From Aquilaria yunnanensis (taxonomy: Eukaryota; Streptophyta; Magnoliopsida; Malvales; Thymelaeaceae), in the NCBI GenBank assembly GCA_039654915.1, contig CM077600.1, positions 26,520,953-26,584,952 of the forward strand: a DNA stretch of 64,000 nucleotides, read 5' to 3'. The position numbers were made by a program, and so were the translations under genes. A model generated the notes under the pieces. The model was given only the letters and a program-made list of their open reading frames with translations, did no database searches and was not told the origin of the DNA. Below are positions 38,411 through 62,401 of the stretch, in pieces. How positions within the stretch are numbered: the stretch's first letter is position 1; each line of letters starts with the position of its first letter.

Positions 38411-38418
38411 TATAAATA
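38411..38418 (+). promoter_or_regulatory. LTR promoter TATA box
   Basis: TATAAATA in the 5' LTR, repeated at 45401-45408 in the 3' LTR, about 500 bp before the LTR end. Its position fits the U3/R boundary of the Copia promoter. Confidence 0.6.
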
Positions 38419-38920
38419 GCCTTTAGTGGCTGGCCATTTTAAGCACGAATTTGTACTCTATTTGCTCCATTTTCTTGAGAGAAAATTGTTCTCCTCCTAT
38501 TTCCTTTCGAGGCCGAAATATTAAACACTTCTTGAGAGCATTGTGGGTGGATTTACATAGAGATTGTTCATCTCTATTCAAGCTTAAAGGTGCCCCTCTA
38601 AGATCAAGTTCTCCCTCAAGTTTTCACCAAAGATAACCAAGAAGAAATGTGCACATTCTCTCTTGGTTTAGTAGCATGCTAGGTTTGAATTATTTACATG
38701 AATGTTCTTAGTAGCATGCTAGGATTTATTTGACACAACATGTATGTAAAATTGATATGTTATATAGCATGTTATATCAACTGCATGAATAATATGTTAA
38801 AGAATTAGTATTATGTATATCTATATCCATGTTGAATTCAAATGAACAAATATGCATGTGGCATATATATGAGTAGATAACATAAAAGTATGTTATCATA
38901 AGATCCTGAAAATCTTCAAT

Positions 38921-38934
38921 TGGTATCAGAGCCT
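38921..38934 (+). other. Primer-binding site (initiator Met tRNA)
   Basis: TGGTATCAGAGCCT two bases after the 5' LTR is the standard plant Copia primer site, complementary to the 3' end of initiator methionine tRNA. It fixes the LTR end at 38918. Confidence 0.9.
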
Positions 38935-39185
38935 AGGTCATGAAAATGTATATGTTGTATGTAGTAAGCATGATTTAGGATCATACATATGTGTATGATT
39001 TTGATAAAGGCTAACGAAGGATATATGTATGAAGCAATGAAGGCATGTTTATGTATTTCTGATCGAATGCTATATGCATCTCTTTTGCCATATATGAGCA
39101 TGTTAGAAGTTATTTCATACACATGTTGCTTTGTTGAGTCTTGTTGTGTAAATTGAACTAAAACATGTGAATTGCATCAATGTAG

Positions 39186-43243: not shown

Positions 43244-44478
43244 ATGTTGGATGTACTTCACCTCTTTGGTGTCACACATGTTATGTATTTTATGAAATAC
43301 TCAGTTCAATTTTATGAATCACAACGAATAAATGAACATGTCAAACATAGGCAGAGGATGACTTTCTCACACGAGTCATCCGCCCTTGATCTTTGTGTAA
43401 GATTAAGGATGAGACTGGCTAAAGACTTAAATGAAACTTAAGTGAATGATACATTTAAGTGGGAGTCATGCTCCAACACATGACACTTTAGCTTTTATGG
43501 TCGCCTTGATTATGAGTAATCAAGATTCCATGCTTTGGTGCATTCTGTTTGTATGACCATTCATACATTCTAGCCTATGTTAGATGTAAGCTAGGGCTTA
43601 CATGGAGAAATTTCATGGTTATTGACATGTCCTCCTTTTATGTGTTAAGAGGAGTACACTTAATGGTGTTTTAAGAGGGAGAAATGACACACTCCTCAAT
43701 TGGAATGGAGATCACTCCAAGTGGGAGTGACATGAGTAAAACACCTTAGAAGTGTATTATGGAACTTTAATGGATGTGTTTCCAAGTGTTCCATGACCAT
43801 GAAATACGACCAAAGAAGAATTTAAGCAAGTTGTCTCTATTCTTGCTTAGTGTGAGATTCTTCGAATCAGACTCTTAGTGACTATGGCTTGCTATTAGGA
43901 AGTTGAGTTAATTATGATTACTTTGATTGGTTGTCGAAGGTCTTAGAGAAATGAGACTGGAGTATCCTCCTTTTGGGTAATCATGTTAACTCATTGACCT
44001 AAGTAGTTGAAGCTAAAAGGAAAGACATTAAGATGATACATGTTCACCAAATTCAATCTTGGGCCCACATATTACTGTGAGTAGTATGCTAGATTGAATG
44101 ACAAGTGATTGAAATGAGTACTCAATGCTTAATACAATCATGGATTTCAAGGAGTTGAAATTCTAAGAAAGAGACTGATTGTGATTAAGAAGTGTATCAT
44201 ATGTCTGGGGTCTGGGAGGCATAGTTTGATGTGTTCAAGCAAGCTTGATGTGTTTAAGCAACACACTTGAATTTGATGTGTTCAAAGGAAAGTTTGAAGA
44301 AGTTCAAAGGACCATCTTCTATTGAGAGTCTAACAACCTCAATAGAAGAGACTTAGTGTGTGTGCCTGAGGTCGCACCCACAACTCTATATATGTAGAAG
44401 TGTCTGGATTATTTCGGCTATAAGGATTAAGGAATTTGTTTTGAGTGGGAGCTGGAACTTTAAAAGCATCTTAGTGCG
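43244..44478 (+). other. Copia 3' untranslated internal region
   Basis: 1.2 kb between the RNase H stop and the purine tract, with no domain-bearing frame. A short motif, AGTGGGAGT-like, recurs (about 43456, 43720), resembling the purine tract that precedes the 3' LTR. Confidence 0.6.
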
Positions 44479-44488
44479 AGTGGGAGTT
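44479..44488 (+). other. Copia polypurine tract
   Basis: GAGTGGGAG followed by TT, directly before TGTTGGAATTC, the start of the 3' LTR. This is the expected primer for plus-strand DNA synthesis. Confidence 0.7.
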
Positions 44489-45705
44489 TGTTGGAATTCT
44501 TGGCGCACCAAGATCCTTTTAAGGTAGGATTTGAGCTCACTGAGCTAACTTTAGCTTGAACAGCTATTTAAGGCAGCTAGAAGTAGCTCCCTTTAGCTCA
44601 AGTTAGCTTATGTCAGCTCACTGCAGCTATAAGTAGCTAAGAGTAGCTGGACTTCAGCTCAAGTCAGCTCACTTCAGCTATAAGTAGCTCAAAGTAGCTG
44701 GACTTCAGTTCAAGTTAGCTCAAGTCAGCTCAAGTCAGCTCACTTCAGTTATAAGTGGCTCAAAGTAGCTGGACTTCAGCTCAAGTCAGCTCACTTCAGC
44801 TTCTGGTAGCTGGACTTCAGTTCACTTCAGCTGAGAGCAGCTAACTCCAGCTCAAGGTCAGCTCTAGGAGCTCGACCTCAGTTCATGGTACTTGGTTGGA
44901 GCTCAAAGGAGCTCAATGGTGCATAAGTAGCATAGTGAGCTAGCTTTATGCCAGCTCACCTTGCTTTTAGCTCATAACCACCAAGAGACACATATTTTGT
45001 GTAAAGGTATGTCTCTTCATCAAAAGAGATGACTATTGGCTAAAAGAACATGTCCTTTCATCCAAAGGAAGTGTTCCTTGAGTGAAAAGACATGTATATT
45101 CGGCCATAAGGTAGTTATGGGGTGGTTATAGGCCAAAAGAAGTGTTCCTTGGCTCTAAAAGACATGTATTTTCGCCCATAAGGTAGTTATGGGTGGTTAT
45201 AGGCCAAAGGAAGTATTCCTTGGCTCTAAAAGACATGTATTTTCGCCCATAAGGTAGTTATGGGTGGTTATAGGCTAAAGGAAGTGTTTCTTGGCTAAAA
45301 GACATGTATTTTCGCCACCATACATGACCCTTAGCCAAAGGAAGTGTTCTTTGGCTTAAAAGACACCTTTCTTGGTATAAAGGTGTGCCTTTTGGTCATC
45401 TATAAATAGCCTTTAGTGGCTGGCTATTTTAAGCACAAATTTGCACTCTATTTGCTCCATTTTCTTGAGAGAAAATTGTTCTCCTCCTATTTCCTTTAGA
45501 GGCCGAAATATTAAACACTTCTTGAGAGCATTGTGGGTGGATTTACATAGAGATTGTTCATCTCTATTCAAGCTTAAAGGTGCCCCTCTAAGATCAAGTT
45601 CTCCCTCAAGTTTTCACCAAAGATAACCAAGAAGAAATGTGCACATTCTCTCTTGGTTTAGTAGCATGCTAGGTTTGAATTATTTACATGAATGTTCTTA
45701 GTAGT
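44489..45705 (+). repeat. Copia 3' LTR, left part
   Basis: Starts TGTTGG and runs parallel to the 5' LTR (from 37652) until GTAG at 45701-45704, where the inner element begins. It continues at 62198. It has one AGCT array unit more than the 5' LTR and retains the TG terminus the 5' copy lost. Confidence 0.9.
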
Positions 45706-46069
45706 TGTTGACACCCAATTTCGTCCGACCCGTAATTTTTTTTTTTTTTTAATTATTATTATTATTACCAAAAATAATAAAAAATTAATAAAAAAATTTT
45801 TTAGGATATGGGGGGCATTTTATTTTATAGGATTAGCTTTAAAATAATATATATCTATATTTGTGTATAAAAATCAAAATTAATTAAAAAACTTTTAAAA
45901 AAATTTACTATTAATTAATTAATTATTTATTTTTTTAAATTGATTAAAACTAAAACTAAAAAAATTCTCCCCCTAGATACGTGTTTTCCTTGTAGCTCGG
46001 CCTCCCCCAGAACAAAACAAAAAAATCTACCTACCTTACCTGCCCCTGACTTTGGCTCCCCCCTACTGG

Positions 46070-46925
46070 AGAAATCACGAACTCTCTCCCTTATCTCAGG
46101 GACCCGATCTGATCTCTAGAGAGTTCGATTCCAGCTCCTTCTCTGTCCAATCTATCTGGCTCTCTCTAGATTTTTCTGATCTTATCTTCTCCTTCACGCT
46201 CTCCTTCTCTCATCTGCTCTCCTTCTCCCTCTGGGGTTCTCTCTCTCTTCGCTCAAATTTCTTTCTTCTCTCTCACGCTCAGCACAGCTCATTCTCTCTC
46301 TCCCCTGGTAACTCTGACCTCTCTCTCTCCTCCTCCCTCTCCCTCTCGCCGAGCCTGCTGACCTCTTCCTCCTCGTGCCCAACTCTCTCCTCCCTCCTCT
46401 CCGTCCCTGGCGCGTCACCTTCATCAGATTCACCTCACCAGCTGCTACCACCGCGTCGACTCCGCGCAGCCCTTGCCAGCTCTAGCCTTCCTCAGTTTTT
46501 CCTCCTCTCTCCGCCTCGACGCCATTCACACCACCAACCGCCTCCTCCTGCTCTAGCTTTGCCCCCGACGCTCCAACCTTGCCGACGCCACCGCAGCCCT
46601 CCCGTAGCCGCTCCCCTCTCGCTCTGTCCGACGCCACCGCAGCCCTCCTTGCACCTTGCCCCCGCTCACCAGTTCCCCACCGTTGCACCGGAAGACTTCC
46701 CCTCCGTCGCGCCTCCCTGCCGTTGCGCCAGTCGCCTCGCGTAGTCCTCTGCCGCGCTCGCACGCCGTCGGTCTCTGCTCTCGCGACTCTCCCCCGCTCC
46801 GTCAGCCGTCGTTCTTTCCTCCGAGCACAGCGCCAGCGCCCGCCCCCTGGCTCGCCTCGTCGCGCCTCGCCTCCCCTGCTGCTGTGCTCCTTTGCTGCAC
46901 GAGGAAGAAGACGCGTTTTTAAATT
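46070..46925. other. CT/GC-rich island in the 5' LTR
   Basis: A strongly pyrimidine-rich then GC-rich stretch in otherwise AT-rich LTR DNA. Frames of 152 codons on the minus strand and 230 and 132 codons on the plus strand overlap. All are Ser/Pro/Arg-rich low-complexity translations without domains, so I do not call a gene. Its place just after the likely U3 suggests an untranslated leader. The same island is at 58665-59520. Confidence 0.5.
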
Positions 46926-47391
46926 GTTGACCAAAGTCAAAGACTTTTTATTTATTTTTGGTAAAATCTTTGTTTAGTCCTTAGCTTTCTTTGTTTTGTT
47001 CATTTAAGTCACTAACATATTCTATGTTGCAAATTAACCCCTATCAGCAAGATTTTCATTATTCATACTTTTCTTTGTTTTCTTTATTAATATTGGTTTG
47101 ATCTTACATAAAATTCGATCATTGAATTGACATGGAAAATAATATAGGATTTTGATTTGATATGTATATTCATGTATATTTATTGGATTTTAGAATAGTT
47201 TAATTTTTATTTTTGTAATATATTAATCTGTATCAAATTATTGGTTAATTAATATTTAAATTTATTAGAAATCCGTCCTAAGATGGATCATCTATCCATG
47301 TCCAGATGATTCGGTTAGAATCCATGGCTTGGATATTAATTGAAATTATTTAAAATAAAAAAATAAAATTAAATAGCAAAAAATCCAATCG

Positions 47392-47562
47392 TGCACCGCC
47401 AACTACCTCAAAATCAAGGACCTTCTCGAGCTGCTCAACCAAAAGATCGCCAAGAGGATCGAGAACAAGAGCGTCGAGTACGTCAGGAAATTCTTCACTG
47501 TCGAGAATGATTACACGCCGGAGAAGAAGGCCCGCCAGTCGCGACTCGCGTTTGTTTCTTGA
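47392..47562 (+). pseudogene. Captured SKP1-like C-terminal fragment (5' LTR)
   Basis: 56 codons ending in TGA. The translation contains CTANYLKIKDLLELLNQKIA and VRKFFTVENDYTPEKKARQ. It matches the SKP1 C-terminal signature of plant ASK proteins (NYLNIK, then FTPEEE), which binds F-box proteins in SCF ubiquitin ligases. The N-terminal cullin-binding domain is absent, and the acidic run after TPE and the usual WAFE end are changed. It is GC-rich against AT-rich neighbours. It looks like a host exon picked up by the retroelement, not an expressed subunit. Confidence 0.8.
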
Positions 47563-49600
47563 CTCAATCAAATTTTTGGGTAAAATTCTTATTTAGCCCT
47601 TGATTCTCTTTGTTTTTATTCATTTAAGTCACTAATGTTTTCCCGTTTTGCATATTTATCACTGACAGTATTGTTTTATGTTTTTATTTCTTTTTTTGGT
47701 TGTTGGTTTATTATTTCGAGAATCATGAATTAGTCTGTGATCAATATTACATAAAATTGCAATTTTAGGTTAGGTCAGATTTTTACCTATTTATTTGATT
47801 TTAATTTTAATAGTTAGCATAAATTTAAAACTCATGCTTACATAACGTATTAAAAAAAAAAAAGGGTCATATTTACGAGATTCAATTCTGAGCATATTTT
47901 AATGAAAATTCAAGAATGAATTTAGAACTAGTAAATCAAAAATCCATATCCAGATGATTCAGTTAGAATCCATGGTTTGGATATTAATTGATATTATTTA
48001 AAGCAAACAAAAAGCAAAAATTAAAAATCAAATAATGAAACCCGGATCGCAAATCGGCTCGTTATTGACCCAGTTATGAAAGTCCATAATTTAAGCATAA
48101 TTTTAATTTTTACCCCTGTATTTATTTGATTTGTCTAATTGAGATCCTATGTTGTTCTAATTTGTAATATGGCCATTGGTTTATCGGCATTTATTTCCTT
48201 TTATGGATTTGTTTTGTTCAGCAAATTAAAGGCATAAATTCATTTAGAAATTAACATTAAGCTTAGGCATAATTAAATATAATTATTATTTTTATTATTA
48301 TTATTATTATTATAAGGGAAGGTTATGTCTCCTATTTATTATTTTAAAAAAAAAAAGTGGATGGCCGAAAAGCCCCACTTTATTTATTTATATATCATCT
48401 TTTGATATTCTTTTATTTACTTTATGTGTTTTCCCTTTATCTATTTGCATGTGTTATTTAATTTATGCATCTCTTTTTTTTAATGGATGTTCAAAACAAA
48501 AAAAAGTAAATAAATAAATAAAAAATAAAAAGAGAAGAAAACCTCCACTTTATTTATTGTTATTTAATTTTTCTTTATTTTATGGTTAAACTCATTTCAT
48601 TTAAAGAAATTAGCCATAAGAAATATATATGTAAAATAAATCTGAACCATGTTGTTAAGTTAAAAAAAAAATTTTAGTTCATGGTATATTGGCTGGAAAC
48701 TGTCTCGTGCCCGCTTTTGAGCTGCTTCACCTGGTGAAGAGAGTCTGGCTGAGTAACAACGCCCCGTACCATGATCAAAGATTTTATTTTTTAAACTCTT
48801 TGATTCCTTTAAATTAACTTCTTATTAAATAAAAAATTAATTATTTTTTTAATTCTTTTATAAATTGAGTAATTCTTTAAATAATAAATATCCTTCATTA
48901 AACAAGAAAAATCAGATAAGAAAAAGAAAAGAAAGATAAAAAAAAGATAAAAATCAAAAAGATAAAGAAAAGAAAAGAAAAGAAAGAAAAGAATAATAAG
49001 ATATAAAAAAGAAAGATTTTTTTTAAATCATTAACAAATTTAATAAAAAAAACTTATAAGTTAAACTAATAATTGATTCCATAAAATAATAAAATAATAA
49101 TTAACTATAAATAATTTCCATATCCGCATGATCCGGCAGGATCTACGGTTTGGAAAATATCAACTTTTTTTTAAAAATTAAATAAATAAAAAGGTAAAAA
49201 TCCATATTTTACAATATGGATTAATTTATTTAAAATTTCATTAAATTCCGTATCCGGGTGACTCGGCAGAGTCCATGGTTCGGAATTAAAAACTTCCGTG
49301 TCCAAATGACTCGGCAGAGTCCATGGTTCGAAAATATCAACTTAACTTAAAAAAAAATCCACATTTTGACTAATTCAGTTAAAATTTCTAGTTTGAAAAT
49401 TAACTGAATTTTTTTTAAAGCAAAGTAAAACAAAATTAAAATCAACTAAGGTGCCAATTTTGGGCGCTATAACAATATTGTTTTAGCGTAACCGTACTCC
49501 CGATCCCCGAACTCTCGCAGACCAATTTTAAGGTGTCCAATCGACCTAGGTAAACAGATTGGTGGTGACTCCCAAAAAAGACCCGCCGCACGTTGCCACA

Positions 49601-49622
49601 GCTTGGCGACTCCACTGGGGAC
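49601..49622 (+). other. Inner element primer-binding site
   Basis: Directly after the LTR end CCACA, GC is followed by TTGGCGACTCCACTGGGGAC. TGGCGACTCC-type primer sites are seen in Ty3-gypsy elements of the Tat/Ogre type. I do not assign the tRNA from memory. It fixes the 5' LTR end at 49600. Confidence 0.65.
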
Positions 49623-50351
49623 ACGGTTAGTGAGTCGAGCCTAAAACTTGATTTGTTTTGTTTTGCTTTGCTTCTTTTTATGTGGATTTTTATATGCTAT
49701 ATTTACTTAAGTAAACATGCATAATGCATTCACAAAATGAAGCTCTATACCCGAGCTTCCTTAAATCAAACACGATTCTTTCTAAGCGGAATTAGTATTG
49801 CTGTCCTTGTGAGGCCACTGTCTCCAAGCCTTCACCGGTTTCAAAGTAGCAAAGTAGTGTATTGCCTTCTGAGACGGTTAGTCTCTGCATGGGCCCACGA
49901 AAAGCTACGACTCGAATTAATCCATTCCTTACGTTAACCCTAGAGGGTAAGGAATCGGGCCGTCACTATGATTTAGTGACGGGATTCGGGAACTATCCCT
50001 TGCCTTTTTGATAAGCCACCTTATGCATATAGAATTCCCCACTTAACCATAGAGCTGACCATAGAATTTCTACCATTTTACCAACGCCATAAGCATATCC
50101 TCGTTATGCTGTGTTGTTACTCTACACTTTTCTTCGTATGGTTTTAACTTGTTTATCCATAATACTTCATGAGTTGTTAATTACTATTTAACTTGTTAAT
50201 AACCTTATTTTTCTTTTGTTATACTTCCGTTCTGTGCAATTATTCTTCATGTATCAAAACCACGCATCAAATTATGCTAACTTTTTGGTCTTTTTAATAA
50301 TAACTAGAAGTCTTGAAGTTTCACAATAGTTAATAATCAAGCTCACTCATT
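49623..50351 (+). other. Inner element leader, no ORF
   Basis: Untranslated internal DNA after the primer site. A 66-codon frame at 49737-49937 has no known domain. No gag is found where one would be expected. Confidence 0.5.
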
Positions 50352-50508
50352 GTAATGGAATACATGCAATGAGATTATTTTTATCAGATTTTTATCAATC
50401 ACATGCATATAAAATCTGATAAAAATAATCTTATTGCATGCATCCATTACATCAATCACATGCATATAAAATCTGATAAAAATAATCTCATTGCATGTAT
50501 TCCATTAC
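50352..50508. repeat. Perfect 40-bp inverted repeat with direct repeats
   Basis: 50352-50391 is the exact reverse complement of 50469-50508 (GTAATGGAATACATGCAATG... against ...CATTGCATGTATTCCATTAC). Between and after them lie further direct copies of the ATGCATATAAAATCTGATAA unit (about 50402, 50460, 50520, 50588). The RNA would form a strong stem-loop. Confidence 0.8.
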
Positions 50509-50675
50509 ATCAATCACGTGCATATAAATTTTGATAAAAAACATAATCTCATTATGTATTGCATGCATCCATTGCATCAATCATATACATGTAAAATCTA
50601 ATAAAATGAATCTCACTTTAAAAAGGTAAAATTGGACCTCAACACCGATATCCAACTCGGCTCCAAACAAGACTA

Positions 50676-50858
50676 ATGGCAGAACAAACCGAAGGACGTC
50701 TCATAGATATAGAGTCCAAGATAGAAAATATGGCCGGAGCAATTCCCTCCTCATTACACCAAAAAATGAAATTCATTTTTGAAGGAAAGTTAATCACAGT
50801 CTTTGCTGGTGAAGACATTCTGCTATCATCTATATCAATAGTAGCAAAGACCAAGTGA
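50676..50858 (+). pseudogene. Tat/Ogre polyprotein remnant
   Basis: A 60-codon frame. Residues 20-50, AGAIPSSLHQKMKFIFEGKL then ITVFAGEDIL, resemble the conserved segment just after the aspartic protease in Tat/Ogre Ty3-gypsy polyproteins (AGAVPSSLHQ-KFI, then E-D-L). The first 19 residues look like a gag-type start (MAEQTEGRLIDIESKIENM), so gag and protease appear deleted and their edges fused. The protease site and everything downstream are gone. This is the only trace of the element's own coding sequence I could find. Confidence 0.55.
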
Positions 50859-51175
50859 CCTTCTCTTCCAAGTTGGTGTGACCCAAATCCCAAATGTAAC
50901 TGAAAATTCTGTCATATTGAAACTCAATGTCCAACAGTTGGTCGAGTCCAAGTTGCTAGGCCCGATGTGATTGGTAATTAAAAGTGAAGATTTTGAGCTG
51001 GAATTACATTAATTTTGGAAGAGCTCCAAGTCAGATCTGACCTAATAGTCCGCACACACTTTTGAATGACAGGGAATCCTTTGAATAAACTTGTATCTTT
51101 GAAAGCTTGCAAAAGTAATTTAATAGTAAAAATCTCCTAGATTTAGTCCAGAATCTAGGGTGTAGTCTTTGTTAA

Positions 51176-51520
51176 ATGGACACCTGCTATTCTTTTTCTG
51201 GTACAACAAAAAGATGTAATGCGTGCATTCTACTACTTTCCATTTTTACACTCTTTGCCATTATACTATCCATTATTGCCATCACACTTTACTTTTCGAC
51301 AACCGGTAATTCTTTTTGTTCTCTAACAAAAAGATGTTGCGTGTGCATTCTACCACTTTTCAATCCCATTATTACTTCTACACATTCTACCAATTTTTAC
51401 CAAAAATTCAATTATTACTCCTACACATTCTACCACTTCTTACCAAAAATTCCGTTTTTACATCCATCTCTCACTCCTTTCCATTATACTATCCATTATT
51501 GCTATCATACTTTACTTTGA
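51176..51520 (+). CDS. Unrecognised 114-codon ORF with one membrane segment
   Basis: Starts MDTCYSFSG. A Cys-flanked hydrophobic stretch follows (ACILLLSIFTLFAIILSIIA, about residues 17-38), then a Phe/Tyr/His-rich tail made by short tandem duplications of the DNA (ACAAAAAGATGT and CACATTCTACCA units). The N-terminus recalls small plant membrane-anchored proteins, but the tail looks like repeat expansion. May not be a gene. Confidence 0.2.
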   Translation: MDTCYSFSGTTKRCNACILLLSIFTLFAIILSIIAITLYFSTTGNSFCSLTKRCCVCILPLFNPIITSTHSTNFYQKFNYYSYTFYHFLPKIPFLHPSLTPFHYTIHYCYHTLL

Positions 51521-53420
51521 AAACGATACTACTCGTGGGTGAAAATAAAAAAGTTAAGGGAGATTTAATAGTGGCGATCTTGAAAGTGCTGTCAAATCTA
51601 GTAAGAAGGATTTCATATGTTACACCCCAACTCTCAAAAAAAAAGAATTCATAGTGGTTATCAACATCCTTACAAGAAGTCTAGGGTTAGCTTCCAAACA
51701 AGGTAGCTCTCATATTAAATGACTTCAGTGGCATCCCAATTCTCACAAACGCTCAATACAAAAAAAAAAAGATTCTCAGTTTTCCGCAACACAAATTCCA
51801 ACAAAGGAAAGAAGTTTATCCCTTCCATCAAAAGACAACAAGGGAAAATTCAAAACCAAAAAGGACTGAGAACAAGCACGAGCAAGCAAGGCCACTTGAG
51901 TCATCTCACTTCAAGAGAGTTATCAAGTATGTCATCACCATAGCTCACAAAAAAAAAAGGGAAACAAAAAAAAAAAAAAGAGAAAGGAAAAAGGGCTCAA
52001 GTTATAGCAAAAGAAAGAAAACAAAAAAGTGAGCTATGGATTCTAGATTGAAAACCTGCAAAGGCGGTTTAGAACACAAAAGAAACCCTCAAACCAAGCA
52101 TGCATAAAGATCACAATAGTTGGGGGGCAACAGATGAGGTCTAACTTTCTGGAAAGAGTGGCAAGTTGAGGTCATCACTATTGAGTTTTTCACCATAATC
52201 AAATTTGCTCACGAGTAGTATTAAAAGACCATTCTTCCACACCACTTAAATTTAACTTTTCTCAAACCGAACATCCTCATTCAGTTAAAAGACTATCATT
52301 GTGAATCATGTTTCTACCTTGTTTAATACTGCTCACGAGTAGTATTAAAAGACCCTTCTTTCACACCACTCAAACTTAACGTTCCTCGGACCTAACACTT
52401 ACCTCTTGATATCATCGTCATTCAGTTAAAAAGCTATTATTGTGAATCATCTTTCTACCTTATTGTCTTGCACAGTTTATGTCTTCGAGTTGGAAAGGGA
52501 AGAATGGCAGGATATTTTAATTAAAAACAAATACCGTAAATTACTTTGTCAAGCTTTGCAAATTGATGAAAGCTTTTCTTTAAGGCCAAACCATTATTCA
52601 TTAATGTGTGTAGACTTAAAAGTGAGGAGATAGCTTGAGTCTTTCTTTAATAAGATGTGGTTCTTGTAAGAGAAATTTACGATCAAGTGTCATCACAAAG
52701 GTATAGAAATGCTCGACCTTCTGTTAAATCAAAGGCGAGGTAATACCTTTTATCCACATAAATACCATATTCAGAGGGCAAACTAGTCTCTATGAAGCGT
52801 AAGAGGAGTACTGCCAATAAAGAAGCTCAATAGACAACAGGGCAAGTCTTATGAATCAGAACTTGAGTTTAAGAAAGAACAATCACTCAGACTATAACAT
52901 GGGGATAAGTAAATGTCGGCATGACCACAAGAAAAGGGGCAAAGAGACATTGAAAGTAAAGCCTTCGATGGTACGAAATCCATGACAACGGATGAGTATC
53001 TAAAGAAATATAAAGTATGAGGCGTGCGAATATTAAAGAAATTGAGGCCAAAATTCAAGAACAAGTCAAAGAAAAGGGATTTTGAAAAGAGTTCGGCTTT
53101 TGAGGCAGTGAACAAAAGCTGGAAAGCATAAAGAGATTCAATGATAGTCCAAGAAGGCCATCACAAAGAAGATCCAGTAAAACAAAGACATAAAGAACTA
53201 GATCCATACAAAAAAAAAAGCCATTAGTTACACATGCTCTGCATTCATGCATTTCATATCATGCATACATAGCCTTTACATAACAATGACCAAACGGGAA
53301 TCACATTCACAGCACAGTTACAGCAATATAAGCTGAGATCTTAATGTCATCAGCTCTTATTAATCTATCACTGGATACACAGCTAATATGCTGAACCAAC
53401 CCGCATCAGGAATTCAAAAA
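51521..53420 (+). other. Inner element spacer with tandem duplications
   Basis: Mostly A/G-rich non-coding DNA. 52207-52465 is a 124-bp unit present twice (GCTCACGAGTAGTATTAAAA at 52207 and 52331). Small frames at 51719-51943 and 52442-52633 have no known domain. No gag-pol homology was seen on either strand. Confidence 0.5.
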
Positions 53421-53810
53421 TATAAAGTAGACAATATTGTCAAAAGCCTGGCAATTGATTCAATAATCGAGACTACACCTGGAAGGATAGGATTGACGCC
53501 AGCTAGTAGTATCCAAGATAAGAGATAGCTATAGCCAAAGATAAGGCAGATATCAAAAAAAAATATATAAAGTAGACAATATTGTCAAAAGCCTGGCAAT
53601 TGATTCAATAATCGAGGCTGCACCTGGTAGGACAGGATTGATGCCAGCTTAGCAGCATCCAAGATAAGAGATAGCTGTGGTCAAAGATAAGGCAGACATC
53701 AAGAAATATTGATGTTGAAACTTTGTCAAAAGCGGACAAAAGATTCAATAATCAAGGACTCGATCGACGTCAGCTGGATGGAATATCAAAGATAAGAAAT
53801 ATCATTCACA
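53421..53810. repeat. 145-bp tandem repeat, 2.5 copies
   Basis: Units start TATAAAGTAGACAATATTGT at 53421 and 53566, with shared CAAAAGCCTGGCAATTGATT and AAGATAAGAGATAGCT blocks. A third, diverged partial unit runs to about 53810. Confidence 0.8.
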
Positions 53811-53942
53811 TCAAAATAAAGTAGGATCCACTTTTCCGGTTAAGCGGCGGATACGGTATTCCGTGACTCTTAAGTCGGTTCTCTCAGTTGCCCATAATAA
53901 CTGATTCTTTCCTCTCTTCTTTCTTTTACTTCCCTCTAGAAA

Positions 53943-54491
53943 ATGGATCCTACTCTTTCTGTCTTACGAAAATATTTTCCTTCTCTCCCAATGAACATTC
54001 TCAAAAAGATCTACCAAGTTCGCTGTGAACGATTAAGAGCTCTGATGCACAAAGGAATACCTGAAGATGTACGGTGGTTAATCGAAGCCAAGGTTCGTCT
54101 GGCAGGTGAAATCCCAGAGACATTTGCGTCTTACATGCCTGGTGTTGGCAAAAGTTCTTATGCTAGAAAAAGAAGAGCGAAAAGATTACAAGTCTGCCAT
54201 AAATGTGGTAGGTGGACTTGTAAGACTAGGTGTCGTTCTTTAGGAATGATCTCCAATAATTGAGAAGATAAAATACGATTCATCAAGAATGGCTTGAGTA
54301 AGGACTCATTGGATGATATCCAATTGACTCTTGATACGCATTCTTGTGGATCTGTGCAACGTGAACTTCTGGGTTTATGGAGCATTTTTAATGAAGAACG
54401 AAACCGTTACAGTCCCGGGAATCTGACGTTAAACGACCCTGTTTGCCAGCTTGTAAGAAAACTGGATGGGAAGCAAATCCTCGACTCATAG
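53943..54491 (+). pseudogene. NABP-like zinc-finger ORF, copy 1 (one stop)
   Basis: 182 codons from ATG 53943 to TAG 54489, broken by TGA at 54261-54263. The middle has a strongly basic Arg/Lys stretch (about residues 75-84) followed at once by a Cys cluster of C-x2-C-x4-C-x3-C form (about residues 86-96). This layout (SSYAR-type basic motif, then CHKC) is that of the cysteine-rich nucleic-acid-binding proteins near the 3' end of betaflexivirus genomes (carlaviruses and relatives), some of which suppress silencing. The C-terminal 80 residues are unlike those I know. Whether this is a captured viral gene or a plant look-alike needs a profile search. As read, the product stops after 106 residues but keeps the basic and Cys motifs. 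Confidence 0.5.
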
Positions 54492-54650
54492 AAGCCGTTA
54501 ATCCCGTTACTGGACGTAAAACCAGTGGAAGATGTGAGTCACAGTCACAATCACTGTACATACAATTTATCATATTTAAAATTTTCCATTTTTCTTTTAA
54601 TAATGTATTTGCTCCCGTAAGTGTAATCGACACGTTATCCATTTCATCGC

Positions 54651-54658
54651 TATAAATG
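54651..54658 (+). promoter_or_regulatory. TATA-like box before ORF copy 2
   Basis: TATAAATG lies 80-87 bp upstream of the ATG of the second NABP-like copy. Suggestive only. Confidence 0.3.
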
Positions 54659-54737
54659 CATGTTCTTCCAGTCGGTTATCTAAGTTTCTTTCAATAACTA
54701 ATTCCTTTCCATCATCTCTCAAATTCTTCTCTCATCA

Positions 54738-55286
54738 ATGGATTCTACTCTTTCTACCCTGCGAAAATACTTTCCTTCTCTTCCAATAAATGTTCTTAAA
54801 ATGATTTACTAAGCTAGATGTGAAAGGATTAGAGTCTTTATGCACAAAGGCATTCCTGACAATGTGCGGTGCTTAATTGAAGCTAAGGTCCGCTCGGCTG
54901 GTGAAGTTTCAGACGCATTTGTGCCCCGTATGCCCGGCTTAGGTAAAAGCGCTTATGCCAAAAAGCGAAGAGCAAAGAGGCTAGGTGTCTGTCATAAATG
55001 TAGACGATGAAATTGCGATACTAAATGTCATTCTTTAGGGCTGATCACCAGAAATCGTGAAGATAAAAGAAAATTCATCAAGAATGCCCTGCGTAAGGAA
55101 TCTTTAGATGATATCCTATTAACTTTTGAAACACATTCTTGTGAAATAGTGCAATGGGAAATTATGGATTTATGGTGGACTTTCCGTAAAGAACATGATC
55201 GTTACAGTCTTGGAAATCTGACTTTTAATGACCCAGTTTGCCAGTTTGTGAGAAAACTGGATGGGATGCAAATCGCCGATTCATAG
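54738..55286 (+). pseudogene. NABP-like zinc-finger ORF, copy 2 (two stops)
   Basis: A tandem duplicate of the preceding ORF, 795 bp downstream, again 182 codons with similar leader and 3' flanks. Stops are at codon 25 (TAA, 54810-54812) and codon 91 (TGA, 55008-55010), both at places where copy 1 is open; copy 1's stop is open here. The basic stretch and the CHKC pair are kept, but the second stop falls inside the Cys cluster. Broken, no full product. Different lesions in the two copies imply that an open ancestral ORF was duplicated before decay. Confidence 0.5.
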
Positions 55287-55339
55287 AAGGCATTGAAGCC
55301 GTTACTGGATGCAAAATCAGTGGAAGACGTGAACCAAAG

Positions 55340-55620
55340 TCACGATTACTGTACATGCTAGCTGTCGCTTTTGAAATTATCCTCCCAATAATGTACCCAC
55401 TCCTGACATGAGATACAGTTATGACTACTGTATATAGCTGCTACTTTTGAAATTTTCCTTCTCTTCCAACAATCACGTACCTACTCCTGACGTAAGCTAC
55501 AGTAGTGACTACTATGTATGCTAGTTGCTTTTGAAATCTTCCTCCTCTTTTAACGATAGTGTACCCATACCTGACCAGAGTCATACTCGTGACTACTGTG
55601 AATAGCTGACAATAATGTAT
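55340..55620. repeat. ~80-bp imperfect tandem repeat upstream of the LOG-like ORF
   Basis: Four diverged units recur with GACTACTGTATATAGCTG-like and GTACCCACTCCTGAC-like blocks at roughly 80-bp spacing. The 3' flank of NABP-like copy 1 (54540-54620) starts the same way, so the repeat probably grew from ORF 3' flank. Confidence 0.6.
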
Positions 55621-55654
55621 CCATTCTTGAAAAATAAAATTATTGCTTTACCTC

Positions 55655-55662
55655 TATAAATA
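55655..55662 (+). promoter_or_regulatory. TATA-like box before the LOG-like ORF
   Basis: TATAAATA 41-48 bp upstream of the ATG at 55703. The spacing would suit an internal promoter with a very short leader. Confidence 0.35.
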
Positions 55663-55702
55663 TATCATATTTTCTTCTTTTCTCATAAGGGTAAGGATAG
55701 GA

Positions 55703-56332
55703 ATGGAGAAAACCTCTACTCGTAAACCCCGAAGTATTTGTGTATTTTCTGGAGCTTTTCCTGGAGAAGATGAAGAGTACTTAAAGGCAGCCAACCATTT
55801 GGGTAGTGTATTAGCTGAGCGAAAAATACACTTAGTTTATGGAGGAGGTAGTGTCGGATTAATAGGAACTGTAGCATCAGCAGCATCTTTAGGAGAAAGC
55901 CAGGTTCTGGGTATTATCCCTGCATCTCTGAAATCGGTTTCTGGGGGCACGATTGGAGAAGAGCTAGTGGTTAAAAATCTGAAAGAGCGTTTGTTACAAA
56001 TGCTTTTTAATGCTGATGCTTTTATCGCTCTACCAGGTAGCTTTGGCACATTAGGAGAAGTCTTCCAAATCGCTTTCATAGCCCAACTTAATTTGCATCA
56101 AAAACCCATTGGGCTGTTAAATGTTAACTATTTCTTCGCAGGTCTATTATCTTTTATGAATCGTGCTGTGAAGCAAAAGTTTATCCCTGAGGTGGCACGA
56201 CGAATCATAATATCCGCAACAACTGCTGAAGAATTGCTAGATAAAATGCAAGCTTTTGTTCCTGAACCAGATCCAGCGATGATCCAATTAGACTGGGCAC
56301 GACAGTCTTTCCCAACCAGTTCCGTCCCATAA
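55703..56332 (+). CDS. LOG-like phosphoribohydrolase ORF carried by the retroelement
   Basis: An intact single-exon frame of 209 residues, close to the usual LOG length. LOG enzymes release active cytokinin bases from nucleoside 5'-monophosphates in the cytosol. Visible: SICVFSGAFPG start, YGGGSVGLIG at 46-55 (phosphate loop), conserved arginine in LKER (residue 96), DAFIALPGSFGTLGE at 105-119 and KPIGLLNV at 134-141. The family motif PGGxGTxxE reads PGSFGTLGE: the second glycine is serine, the last glutamate is kept, and the usual lysine after ER is leucine. Activity may be altered. Plant LOG genes are normally split by several introns, so this copy probably came from an mRNA. The frame is uninterrupted although neighbouring ORFs are broken, so it is either recent or maintained. 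Start chosen at the first ATG before the conserved region. Confidence 0.85.
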   Translation: MEKTSTRKPRSICVFSGAFPGEDEEYLKAANHLGSVLAERKIHLVYGGGSVGLIGTVASAASLGESQVLGIIPASLKSVSGGTIGEELVVKNLKERLLQMLFNADAFIALPGSFGTLGEVFQIAFIAQLNLHQKPIGLLNVNYFFAGLLSFMNRAVKQKFIPEVARRIIISATTAEELLDKMQAFVPEPDPAMIQLDWARQSFPTSSVP

Positions 56333-56875
56333 TTGTCCTTTACCCAGCCTGTTGAAGCATTGTAGAAGAAGAAGCAATCTGATCCGTTTTTCTTGTCCTT
56401 TAGTTTTATTATCAGCATTTTCTTTCGTATTTCAGTTTTTCTTTTCAGGAAATTTCATTATCTTATAAGATAGTTTCGTCCATGCTGATATTAAAACCAT
56501 GCGACAATGCCTTTAGGTTGGAATGGCTGAGTAAAGAGTAATTTTTATTACTCTTGAGACGCATCCTACTAGGTCTACTAGGCATAACATTTTGGGGTAG
56601 TTAAGCTTTAACCTTATTTGGATGACATATCTCACAAGGGAATCTATATTTACTGAAGAAAATATTAGATGAACCTTGGATATTGATTCCAAACATCCGT
56701 TCCCTCTACATAATTTGTTAGTGTTATTGTCATCATCAAGATTCACTCATCTTATCGAAGTCTAAATATCTGCACTCACCTATTATGAAAATTCACACTT
56801 CCGAATAGAACATTTAACCTTCGATTGTCTGAGGTACTTAAAAAGGAGGAAAGAGTTTTTCTCCACAATCATAAT
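56333..56875 (+). other. Spacer between LOG-like ORF and minisatellite
   Basis: Non-coding. AT-rich, with no domain-bearing frame on either strand. Confidence 0.5.
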
Positions 56876-58130
56876 CAATTTTCATCATCGGGGTTTTAAG
56901 GATGGAACCTTTGCCTCGAAAACAATCAATTTTCATCATCGGGGTTTTAAGGATGGAACCTTTGCCTCGAAAACAATCAATTTTCATCATTGGGGTTTTA
57001 AGGATGGAACCTTTGCCTCGAAAATAATCAATTTTCATCGGGGTTTTAAGGATGGAACCTTTGCCTCGAAAACAATCAATTTTCATCATCGGGGTTTTAA
57101 GGATGGAACCTTTGCCTCGAAAACAATCAATTTTCATCATCGGGGTTTTAAGGATGGAACCTTTGCCTCGAAAACAATCAATTTTCATCATCGGGGTTTT
57201 AAGGATGGAACCTTTGCCTCGAAAACAATCAATTTTCATCATTGGGGTTTTAAGGATGGAACCTTTGCCTCGAAAATAATCAATTTTCATCGGGGTTTTA
57301 AGGATGGAACCTTTGCCTCGAAAACAATCAATCAATCCGAGGTTTTAAGGATGGAACCTTTGCCTCGAGATCAATCAATCAATTCGAGGTTTTAAGGATG
57401 GAACCTTTACCTTGACATCAATCAATCAATCCGAGGTTTTAAGGATGGAACCTTTGCCTCGAAATCAATCAATCAATCCGAGGTTTTAAGGATGGAACCT
57501 TTGCCTCGAGATCAATCAATCAATTCGAGGTTTTAAGGATGGAACCTTTACCTCGACATCAATCAATCAATCCGAGGTTTTAAGGATGGAACCTTTGTCT
57601 CGACATCAATCAATCAATTCGAGGCTTTAAGGATGGAACATTTACCTCGACATCAATCAATCAATCCGAGGTTTTAAGGATGGAACCTTTGCCTTGAAAC
57701 CAACCAATCAATCTGAGGTTTTAAGGATGAAACCTTTGCCTCGAAATCAATCAATCAATCTGAGGTTTTAAGGATGGAACCTTTGCCTCAAAATCAATCA
57801 ATCAATTCGAGGTTTTAAGGATGGAACCTTTGCTTCGAAATCAATCAATCAATCCGAGGTTTTAAGGATGAAACCTTTGTCTCGACATCAATCAATCAAT
57901 TCGAGGCTTTAAGGATGGAACCTTTACCTCGACATCAATTAATCAATCCGAGGTTTTAAGGATGGAACCTTTGCCTCGAAACCAACCAATCAATCTGAGG
58001 TTTTAAGGATGAAACCTTTGCCTCGAAATTAATCAATCAATTCGAGGTTTTAAGAATGGAACCTTTGCTTCGAAATCAATCAATCAATCCGAGGTTTTAA
58101 GGATGGAACCTTTGCCTCAGAAACAATCAA
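56876..58130. repeat. Minisatellite, 51-bp then 47-bp units with higher-order structure
   Basis: About 25 units sharing GGTTTTAAGGATGGAACCTT. Up to about 57330 the unit is 51 bp with a CAATTTTCATCATCGGGG spacer and occasional 48-bp variants. From 57331 the unit is 47 bp with a CAATCAATCAATCCGAGG spacer. Variant units show higher-order repeats: a 252-bp block in the first part (variant TTGGGG at 56990 and 57242) and a 282-bp block of six units in the second (variant TTTGTCTCGACATC at 57595 and 57877). Frames through it (165 codons minus, 75 plus) come from the 51-bp period being divisible by three and are not genes. Confidence 0.9.
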
Positions 58131-58141
58131 TTTTCCTTCAA

Positions 58142-58161
58142 CGATAGGAGAGCTCCTATCG
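58142..58161. other. Short stem-loop sequence
   Basis: CGATAGGAG and CTCCTATCG are separated by two bases: a nine-base-pair perfect inverted repeat between the minisatellite and the purine tract. Confidence 0.5.
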
Positions 58162-58253
58162 CCGGGGTTCTAAGGAGAGTTCCTTAACCTCAGGATTTAA
58201 GCGGAGAGAAGATTCTCAATGCCTAGTTAAGCCGGACGAAATTTGGTAACGAC

Positions 58254-58296
58254 TTTGCATGCGTCATGTTCCATGAGGCATGCAAAGGGAGGCAGC
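58254..58296 (+). other. Hairpin and purine-rich tract before the 3' LTR
   Basis: TTTGCATGC (58254-58262) and GCATGCAAA (58278-58286) form an inverted repeat. Its last AAA leads into GGGAGGCAGC, directly before TGTTGACACCC at 58297. The AAAGGGAGG run is the likely polypurine primer. Confidence 0.6.
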
Positions 58297-61200
58297 TGTT
58301 GACACCCAATTTCGTCCGACCCGTAAATTTTTTTTTTTTTTTAATTATTATTATTATTATTACCAAAAATAATAAAAAATTAATAAAAAATTTTTTTAGG
58401 ATATGGGGGGCATTTTATTTTATAGGATTAGCTTTAAAATAATATATATCTATATTTGTGTATAAAAATCAAAATTAATTAAAAAAATTTTAAAAAAATT
58501 TACTATTAATTAATTAATTATTTATTTTTTTAAATTGATTAAAACTAAAACTAAAAAAATTCTACCCCTAGATACGTGTTTTCCTTGTAGCTCGGCCTCC
58601 CCCAGAACAAAACAAAAAAATCTACCTACCTTACCTGCCCCTGACTTTGGCTCCCCCCCTACTGGAGAAATCACGAACTCTCTCCCTTATCTCAGGGACC
58701 CGATCTGATCTCTAGAGAGTTCGATTCCAGCTCCTTCTCTGTCCAATCTATCTGGCTCTCTCTAGATTTTTCTGATCTTATCTTCTCCTTCACGCTCTCC
58801 CTCTCTCATCTGCTCTCCTTCTCCCTCTGGGGTTCTCTCTCTCTTCGCCCAAATTTCTTTCTTCTCTCTCACGCTCAGCACAGCTCATTCTCTCTCTCCC
58901 CTGGTAACTCTGACCTCTCTCTCTCCTCCTCCCTCTCCCTCTCGCCGAGCCTGCTGACCTCTTCCTCCTCCTGCCCAACTCTCTCCTCCCTCCTCTCCGT
59001 CCCTGGCGCGTCACCTTCATCAGATTCACCTCACCAGCTGCTACCACCGCGTCGACTCCGCGCAGCCCTTGCCAGTTCTAGCCTTCCTCAGTTTTTCCTC
59101 CTCTCTCCGCCTCGACGCCATTCACACCACCAACCGCCTCCTCCTGCTCTAGCTTTGCCCCCGACGCTCCAACCTTGCCGACGCCACCGCAGCCCTCCCG
59201 TAGCCGCTCCCCTCTCGCTCTGTCCGACGCCACCGCAGCCCTCCTTGCACCTTGCCCCCGCTCACCAGTTCCCCACCGTTGCACCGGAAGACTTCCCCTC
59301 CGTCGCGCCTCCCTGCCGCCGCGCCAATCGCCTCGCGTCGTCCTCTGCCGCGCTCGCACGCCGTCGGTCTCTACTCTCGCAACTCTCCCCCGCTCCGTCA
59401 GCCTTCGTTCTTTCCTCCGAGCACAGCGCCAGCGCCCGCCCCCTGGCTCGCCTCGTCGCGCCTCGCCTCCCCTGCTGCTGTGCTCCTTTGCTGCACGAGG
59501 AAGAAGACGCGTTTTTAAATTGTTGACCAAAGTCAAAGACTTTTTATTTATTTTTTGTAAAATCTTTGTTTAGTCCTTAGCTTTCTTTGTTTTGTTCGTT
59601 TAAGTCACTAACATATTCTATGTTGCAGATTAACCCCTATCAGCAAGATTTTCATTATTCATACTTTTCTTTGTTTTCTTTATTAATATTGGTTTGATCT
59701 TACATAAAATTTGATCATTGAATTGACATGGAAAATAATATAGGATTTTGATTTGATATGTATATTCATGTATATTTATTGGATTTTAGAATAGTTTAAT
59801 TTTTATTTTTGTAATATATTAATCTGTATCAAATTATTGGTTAATTAATATTTAAATTTATTAGAAATCCGTCCTAAGATGGATCATCTATCCATGTCCA
59901 GATGATTCGGTTAGAATCCATGGCTTGGATATTAATTGAAATTATTTAAAATAAAAAAATAAAATTAAATAGCAAAAAATCCAATCGTGCACCGTCAACT
60001 ACCTCAAAATCAAGGACCTTCTCGAGCTGCTCAACCAAAAGATCGCCAAGAGGATCGAGAACAAGAGCGTCGAGTACGTCAGGAAATTCTTCACTGTCGA
60101 GAATGATTACACGCCGGAGAAGAAGGCCCGCCAGTCGCGACTCGCGTTTGTTTCTTGACTCAATCAAATTTTTGGGTAAAATTCTTATTTAGCCCTTGAT
60201 TCTCTTTGTTTTTATTCATTTAAGTCACTAATGTTCTCCCGTTTTGCATATTCATCACTGACAGTATTGTTTTATGTTTTTATTTCTTTTTTTGGTTGTT
60301 GGTTTATTATTTCGAGAATCATGAATTAGTCTGTGATCAATATTACATAAAATTGCAATTTTAGGTTAGGTCAGATTTTTACCTATTTATTTGATTTTAA
60401 TTTTAATAGTTAGCATAAATTTAAAACTCATGCTTACATAACGTATTAAAAAAAAAAAGGGTCATATTTACGAGATTCAATTCTGAGCATATTTTAATGA
60501 AAATTCAAGAATGAATTTAGAACTAGTAAATCAAAAATCCATATCCAGATGATTCGGTTAGAATCCATGGTTTGGATATTAATTGATATTATTTAAAGCA
60601 AACAAAAAGCAAAAATTAAAAATCAAATAATGAAACCCGGATCGCAAATCGGCTCGTTATTGACCCAGTTATGAAAGTCCATAATTTAAGCATAATTTTA
60701 ATTTTTACCCCTGTATTTATTTGATTTGTCTAATTGAGATCCTATGTTGTTCTAATTTGTAATATGGCCATTGGTTTATCGGCATTTATTTCCTTTTATG
60801 GATTTGTTTTGTTCAGCAAATTAAAGGCATAAATTCGTTTAGAAATTAACATTAAGCTTAGGCATAATTAAACATAATTATTATTTTTATTATTATTATT
60901 ATTATTATAAGGGAAGGTTATGCCTCCTATTTATTATTTAAAAAAAAAAAGTGGATGGCCGAAAAGCCCCACTTTATTTATTTATATATCATCTTTTGAT
61001 ATTCTTTTATTTACTTTATGTGTTTTCCCTTTATCTATTTGCATGTGTTATTTAATTTATGCATCTCTTTTTTTTAATGGATGTTCAAAACAAAAAAAAA
61101 TAAATAAATAAATAAAAAATAAAAAGAGAAGAAAACCTCCACTTTATTTATTGTTATTTAATTTTTCTTTATTTTATGGTTAAACTCATTTCATTTAAAG

Positions 61201-62193
61201 AAATTAGCCATAAGAAATATATATGTAAAATAAATCTGAACCATGTTGTTAAGTTAAAAAAAAAAATTTAGTTCATGGTATATTGGCTGGAAACTGTCTC
61301 GTGCCCGCTTTTGAGCTGCTTCACCTGGTGAAGAGGGTCTGGCTGAGTAACAACGCCCCGTACCATAATCAAAGATTTTATTTTTTAAACTCTTTGATTC
61401 CTTTAAATTAACTTCTTATTAAATAAAAAATTAATTATTTTTTTAATTCTTTTATAAATTGAGTAATTCTTTAAATAATAAATATCCTTCATTAAACAAG
61501 AAAAATCAGATAAGAAAAAGAAAAGAAAGATAAAAAAAAGATAAAAATCAAAAAGATAAAGAAAAGAAAAGAAAAGAAAGAAAAGAATAATAAGATATAA
61601 AAAAGAAAGATTTTTTTTTAAATCATTAACAAATTTAATAAAAAAAAACTTATAAGTTAAACTAATAATTGATTCCATAAAATAATAAAATAATAATTAA
61701 CTATAAATAATTTCCATATCCGCATGATCCGGCAGGATCTACGGTTTGGAAAATATCAACTTTTTTTTAAAAATTAAATAAATAAAAAGGTAAAAATTCA
61801 TATTTTACAATATGGATTAATTTATTTAAAATTTCATTAAATTCCGTATCCGGGTGACTCGGCAGAGTCCATGGTTCGGAATTAAAAACTTCCGTGTCCA
61901 AATGACTCGGCAGAGTCCATGGTTCGGAAATATCAACTTAACTTAAAAAAAAATCCACATTTTGACTAATTCAGTTAAAATTTCTAGTTTGAAAATTAAC
62001 TGAATTTTTTTTAAAGCAAAGTAAAACAAAATTAAAATCAACTAAGGTGCCAATTTTGGGCGCTATAACAATATTGTTTTAGCGTAACCGTACTCCCGAT
62101 CCCCGAACTCTCGCAGACCAATTTTAAGGTGTCCAATCGACCTAGGTAAACAGATTGGTGGTGACTCCCAAAAAAGACCCGCACGTTGCCACA
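58297..62193 (+). repeat. Inner element 3' LTR (3.9 kb)
   Basis: 3897 bp, a near-identical partner of 45706-49600 with the same block order. Differences are scattered substitutions (for example a cluster at about 59317-59340) and A/T-run lengths. One three-base loss near its end (ACCCGCCGCACG in the 5' LTR against ACCCGCACG here) may mark the integration edge. Confidence 0.9.
59988..60158 (+). pseudogene. Captured SKP1-like C-terminal fragment (3' LTR)
   Basis: The 3' LTR copy of 47392-47562: same 56 codons and stop, with one amino-acid change (Ala to Val at the third codon). It is present because LTRs are copied from one template, so capture happened before this insertion, in a parent element. 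Confidence 0.8.
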
Positions 62194-62401
62194 GTAGCAT
62201 GCTAGGATTTATTTGACATAACATGTATGTAAAATTGATATGTTATATAGCATGTTATATCAACTGCATGAATAATATGTTAAAGAATTAGTATTATGTA
62301 TATCTATATCCATGTTGAATTCAAATGAACAAATATGCATGTGGCATATATATGAGTAGATAACATAAAAGTATGTTATCATAAGATCCTGAAAATCTTC
62401 A
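62194..62401 (+). repeat. Copia 3' LTR, right part after nested insertion
   Basis: Resumes GTAGCATGCTAGGATTTATT exactly where 45705 broke off (the matching 5' LTR region begins at 38711) and ends ...AATCTTCA at 62401, the same terminus as the 5' LTR. The first five bases are the right copy of the inner element's target duplication. Confidence 0.92.

Follow-up and report, generated by a model that had tools for sequence, protein, structure and literature searches.

A long terminal repeat retroelement family of Aquilaria yunnanensis with a cassette of NABP-like and LOG-like genes and no pol in the copies examined

Introduction

Plant long terminal repeat (LTR) retroelements with genes beyond gag and pol are known, and most of their extra open reading frames (ORFs) have no known relatives or function. 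The large non-autonomous LTR elements are referred to as LARDs. Two Athila-like elements with similarity to LOGL4 were reportedly described by Steinbauerova in 2011. The presence of LOG (YgdH) in Ty3/gypsy elements of Citrus and Populus is in print (PMC9289625, citing Steinbauerova 2011). A survey that offers a lineage scheme for Athila and Tat among elements with extra ORFs was confined to extra ORFs of at least 250 codons, above the size of the two genes considered here (PMC6317226). Here we describe an LTR element at positions 45706..62193 of a 64,000-nucleotide stretch of Aquilaria yunnanensis DNA (assembly GCA_039654915.1, contig CM077600.1, positions 26,520,953 to 26,584,952 of the forward strand; the whole stretch is called the window). 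It carries a LOG-like gene and genes resembling the nucleic-acid-binding proteins (NABPs) of flexiviruses. A preliminary description of the locus had held that a cytokinin-activating enzyme family, an SCF component piece and a possible viral nucleic-acid-binding protein joined in one mobile unit are, to its author's knowledge, an undescribed arrangement.

The element belongs to a large LTR family, without pol in the copies examined. We consider it likely that this family is moved in trans and that its NABP-LOG cassette is kept by selection and acts on the host to the element's advantage. Both extra genes have named relatives with testable activities.

Results

The element and its family

The window element is a young representative of a large family of LTR retroelements, none of whose examined copies has pol. 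Between a leader and the 3' LTR, the family holds a cassette of two or three tandem NABP-like genes and one LOG-like gene. The parts of the window element are listed below, with the strand in brackets.

45701..45705 (no strand): left target site duplication (TSD), GTAGT; the right copy and the empty site read GTAGC
45706..49600 (+): 5' LTR, TGTTGACACC...GTTGCCACA, aligned to the 3' LTR
47392..47562 (+): SKP1 C-terminal (dimerisation domain) piece, PF01466, 50.9 bits, 56 codons without a start of its own
49604..49622 (+): primer binding site (PBS), TGGCGACTCCACTGGGGAC, read from the sequence
49623..53831 (+): leader with no pol detected, also present in further family copies of this genome
53832..53942 (+): upstream part of the NABP module, of which 75 nt are 84% identical to the same place in contig L001 (see below)
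53943..54491 (+): NABP-like copy 1, interrupted by a stop in frame at codon 107
54738..55286 (+): NABP-like copy 2, interrupted in the same way at codons 25 and 91
55703..56332 (+): LOG-like ORF, open, 209 aa, PF03641, 101.5 bits
56873..58135 (+): tandem array, unit 47-51 bp, in the interval from LOG to the 3' LTR
58284..58296 (+): polypurine tract (PPT), AAAGGGAGGCAGC
58297..62193 (+): 3' LTR, with a second SKP1 piece near 59986-60156
62194..62198 (no strand): right TSD, GTAGC

The element is intact, with an LTR pair, PBS, PPT, TSD and TG..CA ends. The LTRs differ at 33 of 3,889 aligned sites (0.85%), which would correspond to about 0.3 million years at a substitution rate of 1.3e-8 per site and year. 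No gag, protease, reverse transcriptase (RT), RNase H or integrase (INT) domain was found in the six frames of 49602-58293 (Pfam, E <= 0.1), the only matches in the internal region being Carla_C4, Viral_NABP, Lysine_decarbox and LDcluster4, and 53 NABP-linked proteins gave no tblastn match (E <= 1e-3) to the element outside its cargo. Likewise, no polyprotein, in which the second RNase H of Ogre/Tat elements (aRH) would sit, was found in the window element. A stretch at 50676-50860, which might be a pol remnant of Ogre-like appearance, gave no Pfam match even at E 10. The PBS TGGCGACTCCACTGGGGAC is putatively of the tRNA-Arg type. Ogre elements have a PBS antisense to tRNA-Arg (PMC9289625). 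The PBS strings were not found in the open-access literature searched.

The preliminary description had listed complete LTRs with PBS and PPT, the lack of RT and integrase, a SKP1 C-terminal piece in each LTR, an intact LOG-like ORF and a possible likeness to viral nucleic-acid-binding proteins, and all of these stand. Its duplicated Cys-rich basic ORF is indeed duplicated, but both copies are interrupted by stops in the window.

The family was sought in the element's own genome (G000, 842 Mb). The internal region as query matched 106 pieces, which are distributed over seven numbered contigs; 18 of 10,810 candidates were scored. A search with the NABP-like protein P0121 scored 150 NABP places, every one of them full-length, free of stops and 97-98% identical to this protein; these are the best-scoring of 8,502 first-look candidates, and since the ranking favours open copies they give no estimate of the open fraction. 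In all 30 NABP1 loci that were fetched, NABP1 is open and the window leader lies upstream, its match ending within 160 nt of the ATG (under a first cut-off of 150 nt, 13 of the 30 were counted, and the other 17 end 150-155 nt away). Three NABP-like segments are found in 29 of these loci and two in the remaining one, and no pol match was found in any of the 30 within the 1.5 kb examined per locus.

A second, nearly complete copy (L040-L043) has a window-like LTR start, leader, cargo, tandem array and PPT. Its PBS differs from that of the window by one base, and both fit TGGCGACTCC[AG]CTGGGGAC; its leader is 88-92% identical to the window leader, and the first 2.8 kb of its LTR pair show 3 mismatches in 2,845 columns. 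NABP1 and NABP3 (182 aa) and LOG (209 aa) are open in this copy, and NABP2 has no open frame of 100 aa. Neither tblastn with the 53 proteins nor a Pfam scan of its 5' part, in three forward frames, detected pol in it. In a further copy, L003, the LTR is 97.7% identical to the window LTR over 1.5 kb and adjoins the same cargo.

Two further features of the second copy were observed. Its 3' LTR runs directly into an inverted LTR piece (L041 9857-10000, L043 1-723), so this end is rearranged or abuts another copy. Its leader holds an inserted element (L040 804-9291) with an open ORF of 1,323 aa, which looks copia-like by its first residues.

The possibility that the locus is a one-off or an assembly join, named in the preliminary description as what would overturn it, is rejected by the 106 pieces, the 150 NABP places and the second nearly complete copy. 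Its other proviso was that LTR-matched copies might all have ordinary gag-pol and lack the cargo; both copies with compared LTRs (L040-L043 and L003) contradict it. The preliminary reading of a retroelement family with cargo is supported in that many copies exist and none of those examined has pol; such a family would need to be mobilized in trans.

The cassette in other plants

The preliminary description had pictured a unit that itself combined three captured genes. This is not supported, as NABP and LOG already form a cassette 3' of integrase elsewhere. Gene order was tallied in 55 NABP-bearing proteins (53 longer proteins with an NABP stretch, plus P0197 and P0198), which are automatic gene models joining neighbouring frames and so document adjacency, not fused proteins. 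INT-NABP is found in 31 (in Melia, Populus and others), INT-NABP-LOG in 11 (seven from Citrus, three from Primulina, one from Henckelia), NABP-LOG in seven (Citrus, Acer, Orobanche), NABP only in five and NABP-INT in one. NABP is therefore downstream of integrase in 42 of the 43 proteins having both. Judged from these gene models, NABP and LOG are a cassette located 3' of integrase in Ty3/gypsy elements of other plants, and not a random haul. Some NABP and LOG hits came from contigs of equal length, an agreement that was set aside because it may be due to chance.

Nineteen of the proteins were scanned with Pfam, giving RT in 7, RNase H in 7, integrase in 9 and the NABP family in 12. A second RNase H (RVT_3) was found in none of the 19, of which only four (P0205, P0207, P0221 and P0225) span RT to integrase. 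Athila elements have a Ty3/gypsy pol lacking aRH and an extra ORF 3' of pol. Under the scheme of PMC6317226 the domain content speaks for Athila rather than Tat, although it does not amount to a lineage test.

The order integrase-NABP is also found on a 3.3-kb contig (L001, DAIEQH010000041.1) of a Candidatus Nomurabacteria metagenome-assembled genome, which came up when prokaryote contigs were scanned with the NABP alignment. Over 63% of its length, the NABP of this contig matches the Melia azedarach gene model P0211 at 97% identity, so the contig is apparently plant contamination. Integrase (rve, Integrase_H2C2) is followed about 200 nt later by an open NABP, and no LOG match better than E 0.03 was found in the 1 kb downstream of NABP that was examined. 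The stretch before the NABP start (window 53832-53905, L001 1665-1739) is 84% identical, compared with 74% over the whole matched stretch. The homology in L001 begins 4 nt after a pyrimidine-rich CAG, and capture from a spliced mRNA was entertained as an idea; the CAG site ranks fourth among 45 such sites, and the window has an acceptor-like site of its own at the ATG. RNA structure upstream of NABP was not significant (z -0.64 and -0.06), and that idea was dropped.

NABP-like genes and their viral likeness

The two NABP-like copies of the window differ at 134 positions over 549 nt, without an indel. Searches returned 83 NABP relatives, 26 of them 180-186 aa long, and a single one of the 83 (P0128) resembles copy 2 more than copy 1. 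A quick tree of 34 sequences places the NABPs of the window, L041, P0121 and P0128 in one group (97 in the SH-like approximate likelihood-ratio test, SH-aLRT). Copies from the same genome group together, and therefore the tandem duplication arose within the lineage of this group.

The window NABP ORF scores 25.2 for Carla_C4 (cut-off 20.9) and 25.2 for Viral_NABP (cut-off 23), in both cases above the curated cut-offs, under which some of its relatives fall. Across alignments of 29 and 51 NABP sequences, four Cys residues and a basic stretch of the KKRRAK type vary little or not at all, and Viral_NABP is matched by 44 and Carla_C4 by 43 of the 51 members (E <= 0.001). Three protein-based scans of IMG/VR returned no NABP relatives; the relatives sit on plant chromosomes. 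A viral origin of the whole unit was also considered and is not supported, the LTR-start and PBS strings having no match, and the proteins no relative, in IMG/VR.

Selection on the cassette

Over longer distances, codon-based comparisons show NABP and LOG under purifying selection, with ratios of replacement to silent substitution rates (Ka/Ks) of 0.13-0.30. The two window NABP copies differ at 41, 26 and 67 first, second and third codon positions, giving a Ka/Ks of 0.26 (wrong-frame controls 0.88 and 1.39). Between the window and L041, Ka/Ks is 0.13 for NABP1, 0.29 for NABP2 of the window against NABP3 of L041, and 0.30 for LOG (wrong-frame controls 0.56 and 4.37). NABP1 and NABP3 within L041 give 0.22 (wrong-frame controls 0.71 and 1.79), and the NABP of L001 against NABP1 of L041 gives 0.26.

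The LOG-like ORF

The LOG-like ORF, of 209 aa, is open and belongs to the Lysine_decarbox family (PF03641, 101.5 bits). Its top match among Protein Data Bank sequences is Arabidopsis At2g37210, and a conserved Arg is kept in 116 of 120 listed LOG relatives. A tree was built from 59 sequences (44 of the 120 listed relatives, 12 NABP- or pol-linked proteins, the window and two Arabidopsis LOGs). In this tree, whose bootstrap had not settled, the Arabidopsis LOGs group with Xanthoceras proteins, the linked Citrus LOGs form a separate group, the linked Orobanche gracilis LOGs stand beside Paulownia, and those of Primulina and Henckelia stand beside P0035; the linked Orobanche minor LOG has a very long branch without a clear placement. 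Annotated multi-copy LOG-like genes (Populus LOGL10, Reevesia, Paulownia, Diplodiscus) fall among the retroelement-linked LOGs. Many annotated multi-copy LOG-like plant genes may be retroelement genes.

These data bear on the view that NABP and LOG are domesticated genes serving the host and amplified as host genes through retrotransposition. LOG being a plant hormone gene family would suit it. We nevertheless regard this as most improbable, since NABP and LOG adjoin integrase in gene models or sit between LTRs in the copies read, and the linked LOG-like proteins are on branches other than those of the Arabidopsis LOGs.

Observations weighing against a selected, virus-like cassette

A number of results count against the interpretation that we favour. 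Sequence similarity between NABP and viral proteins is weak (best E 3.4e-9), and an NABP Pfam match (E <= 0.001) is present in only 12 of the 19 pol- or LOG-linked proteins. The AlphaFold model of NABP is poor (predicted local distance difference test, pLDDT, 62.8), and Foldseek with this model gave no match at E <= 0.001, the best being 0.16. It could thus be argued that the viral likeness is convergent, reflecting a Cys-rich zinc finger and a basic stretch in what is really a nucleocapsid-like protein or a cellular zinc finger, as the modest Pfam scores and the lack of a significant fold match would allow. This seems unlikely to us, because the similarity of P0162 to the viral profile spans about 117 residues (profile 86-202, E 5.8e-8) and because most members (the 44 of 51 above) match Viral_NABP. 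In addition, flexivirus NABP, RNA-binding or silencing-suppressor proteins occupy 12 of the first 14 Foldseek rows listed against a general viral library, none of them significant.

Further results concern the maintenance of the cassette. Eight window-type copies, the window among them, were compared for stops (L005 and L006 lie next to each other and are almost identical). Six of the eight have the codon-107 stop in NABP1, LOG is stopped in three (open in five) and NABP2 in two (open in six). Because the window subfamily spread with NABP1 already stopped, NABP1 is not strictly needed in cis. In three close copies LOG has 7-8 replacement changes and 0-1 silent ones, and close copies give Ka/Ks of 0.20-0.89 for NABP1 and 0.68-1.46 for NABP2 (three copies compared), so that both genes may have been drifting recently in the window subfamily. 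Between the window and L041, NABP1 has a Ks of 0.24, higher than the 8-12% divergence of the leader, which hints that cassette and leader may have different histories or recombine. Part of the selection signal may date from a pol-bearing ancestor. In LOG, the residue after the conserved Arg is a Lys in both Arabidopsis proteins and a different residue in 116 of the 120 listed relatives. The window ORF keeps R96 and E119 but has Ser for G113 of the PGGxGTxxE motif; LOG enzymes, which are cytokinin riboside 5'-monophosphate phosphoribohydrolases, carry this motif together with the conserved Arg.

The stops, and the excess of replacement over silent changes in LOG between close copies, are what one would expect if the cassette had been inherited from a pol-bearing ancestor and were now carried passively and decaying, its selection signal being ancestral. 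We think this rather unlikely, given a LOG Ka/Ks of 0.30 between two pol-less copies, the open NABP1 at all 150 best-scoring places (under a ranking that favours open frames) and the 30 open fetched loci.

Insertion site and SKP1 piece

The element was inserted into the 3' LTR of a Ty1/copia-like element (37653-45705 and 62194-62401), whose 5' LTR (37653-38918) is uninterrupted. In this 5' LTR the empty site, GTAGC, can still be read at 38711-38715, and both the insertion and the 5-bp duplication are thereby seen directly. The duplication noted in the preliminary description is supported by this site, but only four of five bases agree with TG..CA ends; all five agree (AGTAG) if the ends are shifted by one base. 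The copia LTR pair has 14 differences in 1,062 sites, and the nesting order is therefore consistent. The coding frame of the copia-like element holds at least one in-frame stop, judged by eye, and a fold-back (inverted) repeat of about 100 bp lies within the leader of the inserted element (50351-50509).

The SKP1 dimerisation domain in the 5' LTR (PF01466, 50.9 bits) recurs in the 3' LTR with one residue changed. None was found in the LTR sequence examined of the second copy, so the SKP1 piece looks like a subfamily feature.

Discussion

The favoured reading, that of a trans-mobilized family whose cassette is maintained because it acts on the host, can be set out as a series of steps. The cassette would derive from an autonomous element, probably of the Athila type, and a gag-pol-bearing relative would copy and integrate the element in trans, recognizing its PBS, PPT and LTR ends. 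The chrysanthemum virus B protein p12 is a transcriptional activator in the nucleus and a silencing suppressor in the cytoplasm (PMC7588395), and it induces hyperplasia (PMC12172455). By analogy with p12, NABP might dampen RNA silencing and/or switch on host genes, and LOG would release active cytokinin. Cells transcribing the element would then leave it unsilenced and divide, which would suit an element that depends on being copied in meristems or the germ line. Both NABPs of the window copy would have decayed since, and its LOG remains open.

More tentatively, the family may be a satellite retroelement, without enzymes for its own copying, that keeps by selection a silencing suppressor or transactivator related by descent to flexivirus NABPs together with a cytokinin-activating enzyme. 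NABP genes would then have moved between RNA viruses and retroelements of the Athila type, perhaps in the direction of the virus. We hold this extended form to be possible at best. If true, it would make the family a plant counterpart of a defective transforming retrovirus.

The order NABP-LOG is kept in plants as distant as Citrus and Primulina, and the pair persists in a family where it supplies the only protein genes found. It can now be tested whether plant retroelements bring tools of their own against silencing and for growth, and whether NABP genes have been exchanged between RNA viruses and retroelements. Neither an NABP partner, nor an NABP-LOG pair in LTR elements, nor a pol-less family keeping both genes was found in open-access full texts, which leave out most subscription journals. 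LTR elements with extra genes are known, and an NABP-LOG pair present in several plant orders and kept by a pol-less family appears to be new.

With LARDs the window element has in common long LTRs, a PBS, a PPT and a long internal region without gag-pol, whereas the internal region of its family has protein genes with a signal of purifying selection. The Athila-type and other LOG-bearing gypsy elements are alike in having a LOG-family ORF within plant Ty3/gypsy elements; the window element differs in lacking gag-pol, in its tandem NABP copies and in the pairing of LOG with a flexivirus-like NABP. The account of LOG gypsy elements in PMC9289625 does not name NABP, and the pair is reported here from more plant genera. 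Bs1 and other gene-transducing plant LTR elements enclose pieces of host genes (PMC7264820), and the SKP1 piece of the window fits this pattern; the NABP-LOG cassette, in contrast, recurs in several plant orders rather than being confined, as a fragment, to a few copies. A giant Gypsy element of Phalaenopsis with an AlkB-like m6A demethylase (PMC9289625) also has an accessory gene of a domain found in flexiviruses. It combines Gag-Pol with one extra domain, whereas the window element has two other genes and no pol. Lastly, the NABPs of carlaviruses and flexiviruses, such as chrysanthemum virus B p12, have the CxxC...C...C finger, the basic stretch and the Viral_NABP and Carla_C4 matches in common with the plant proteins. 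Unlike them, the plant NABP is 182 aa long, chromosomal and located inside retroelements, and its C-terminal part extends beyond the matched profile region.

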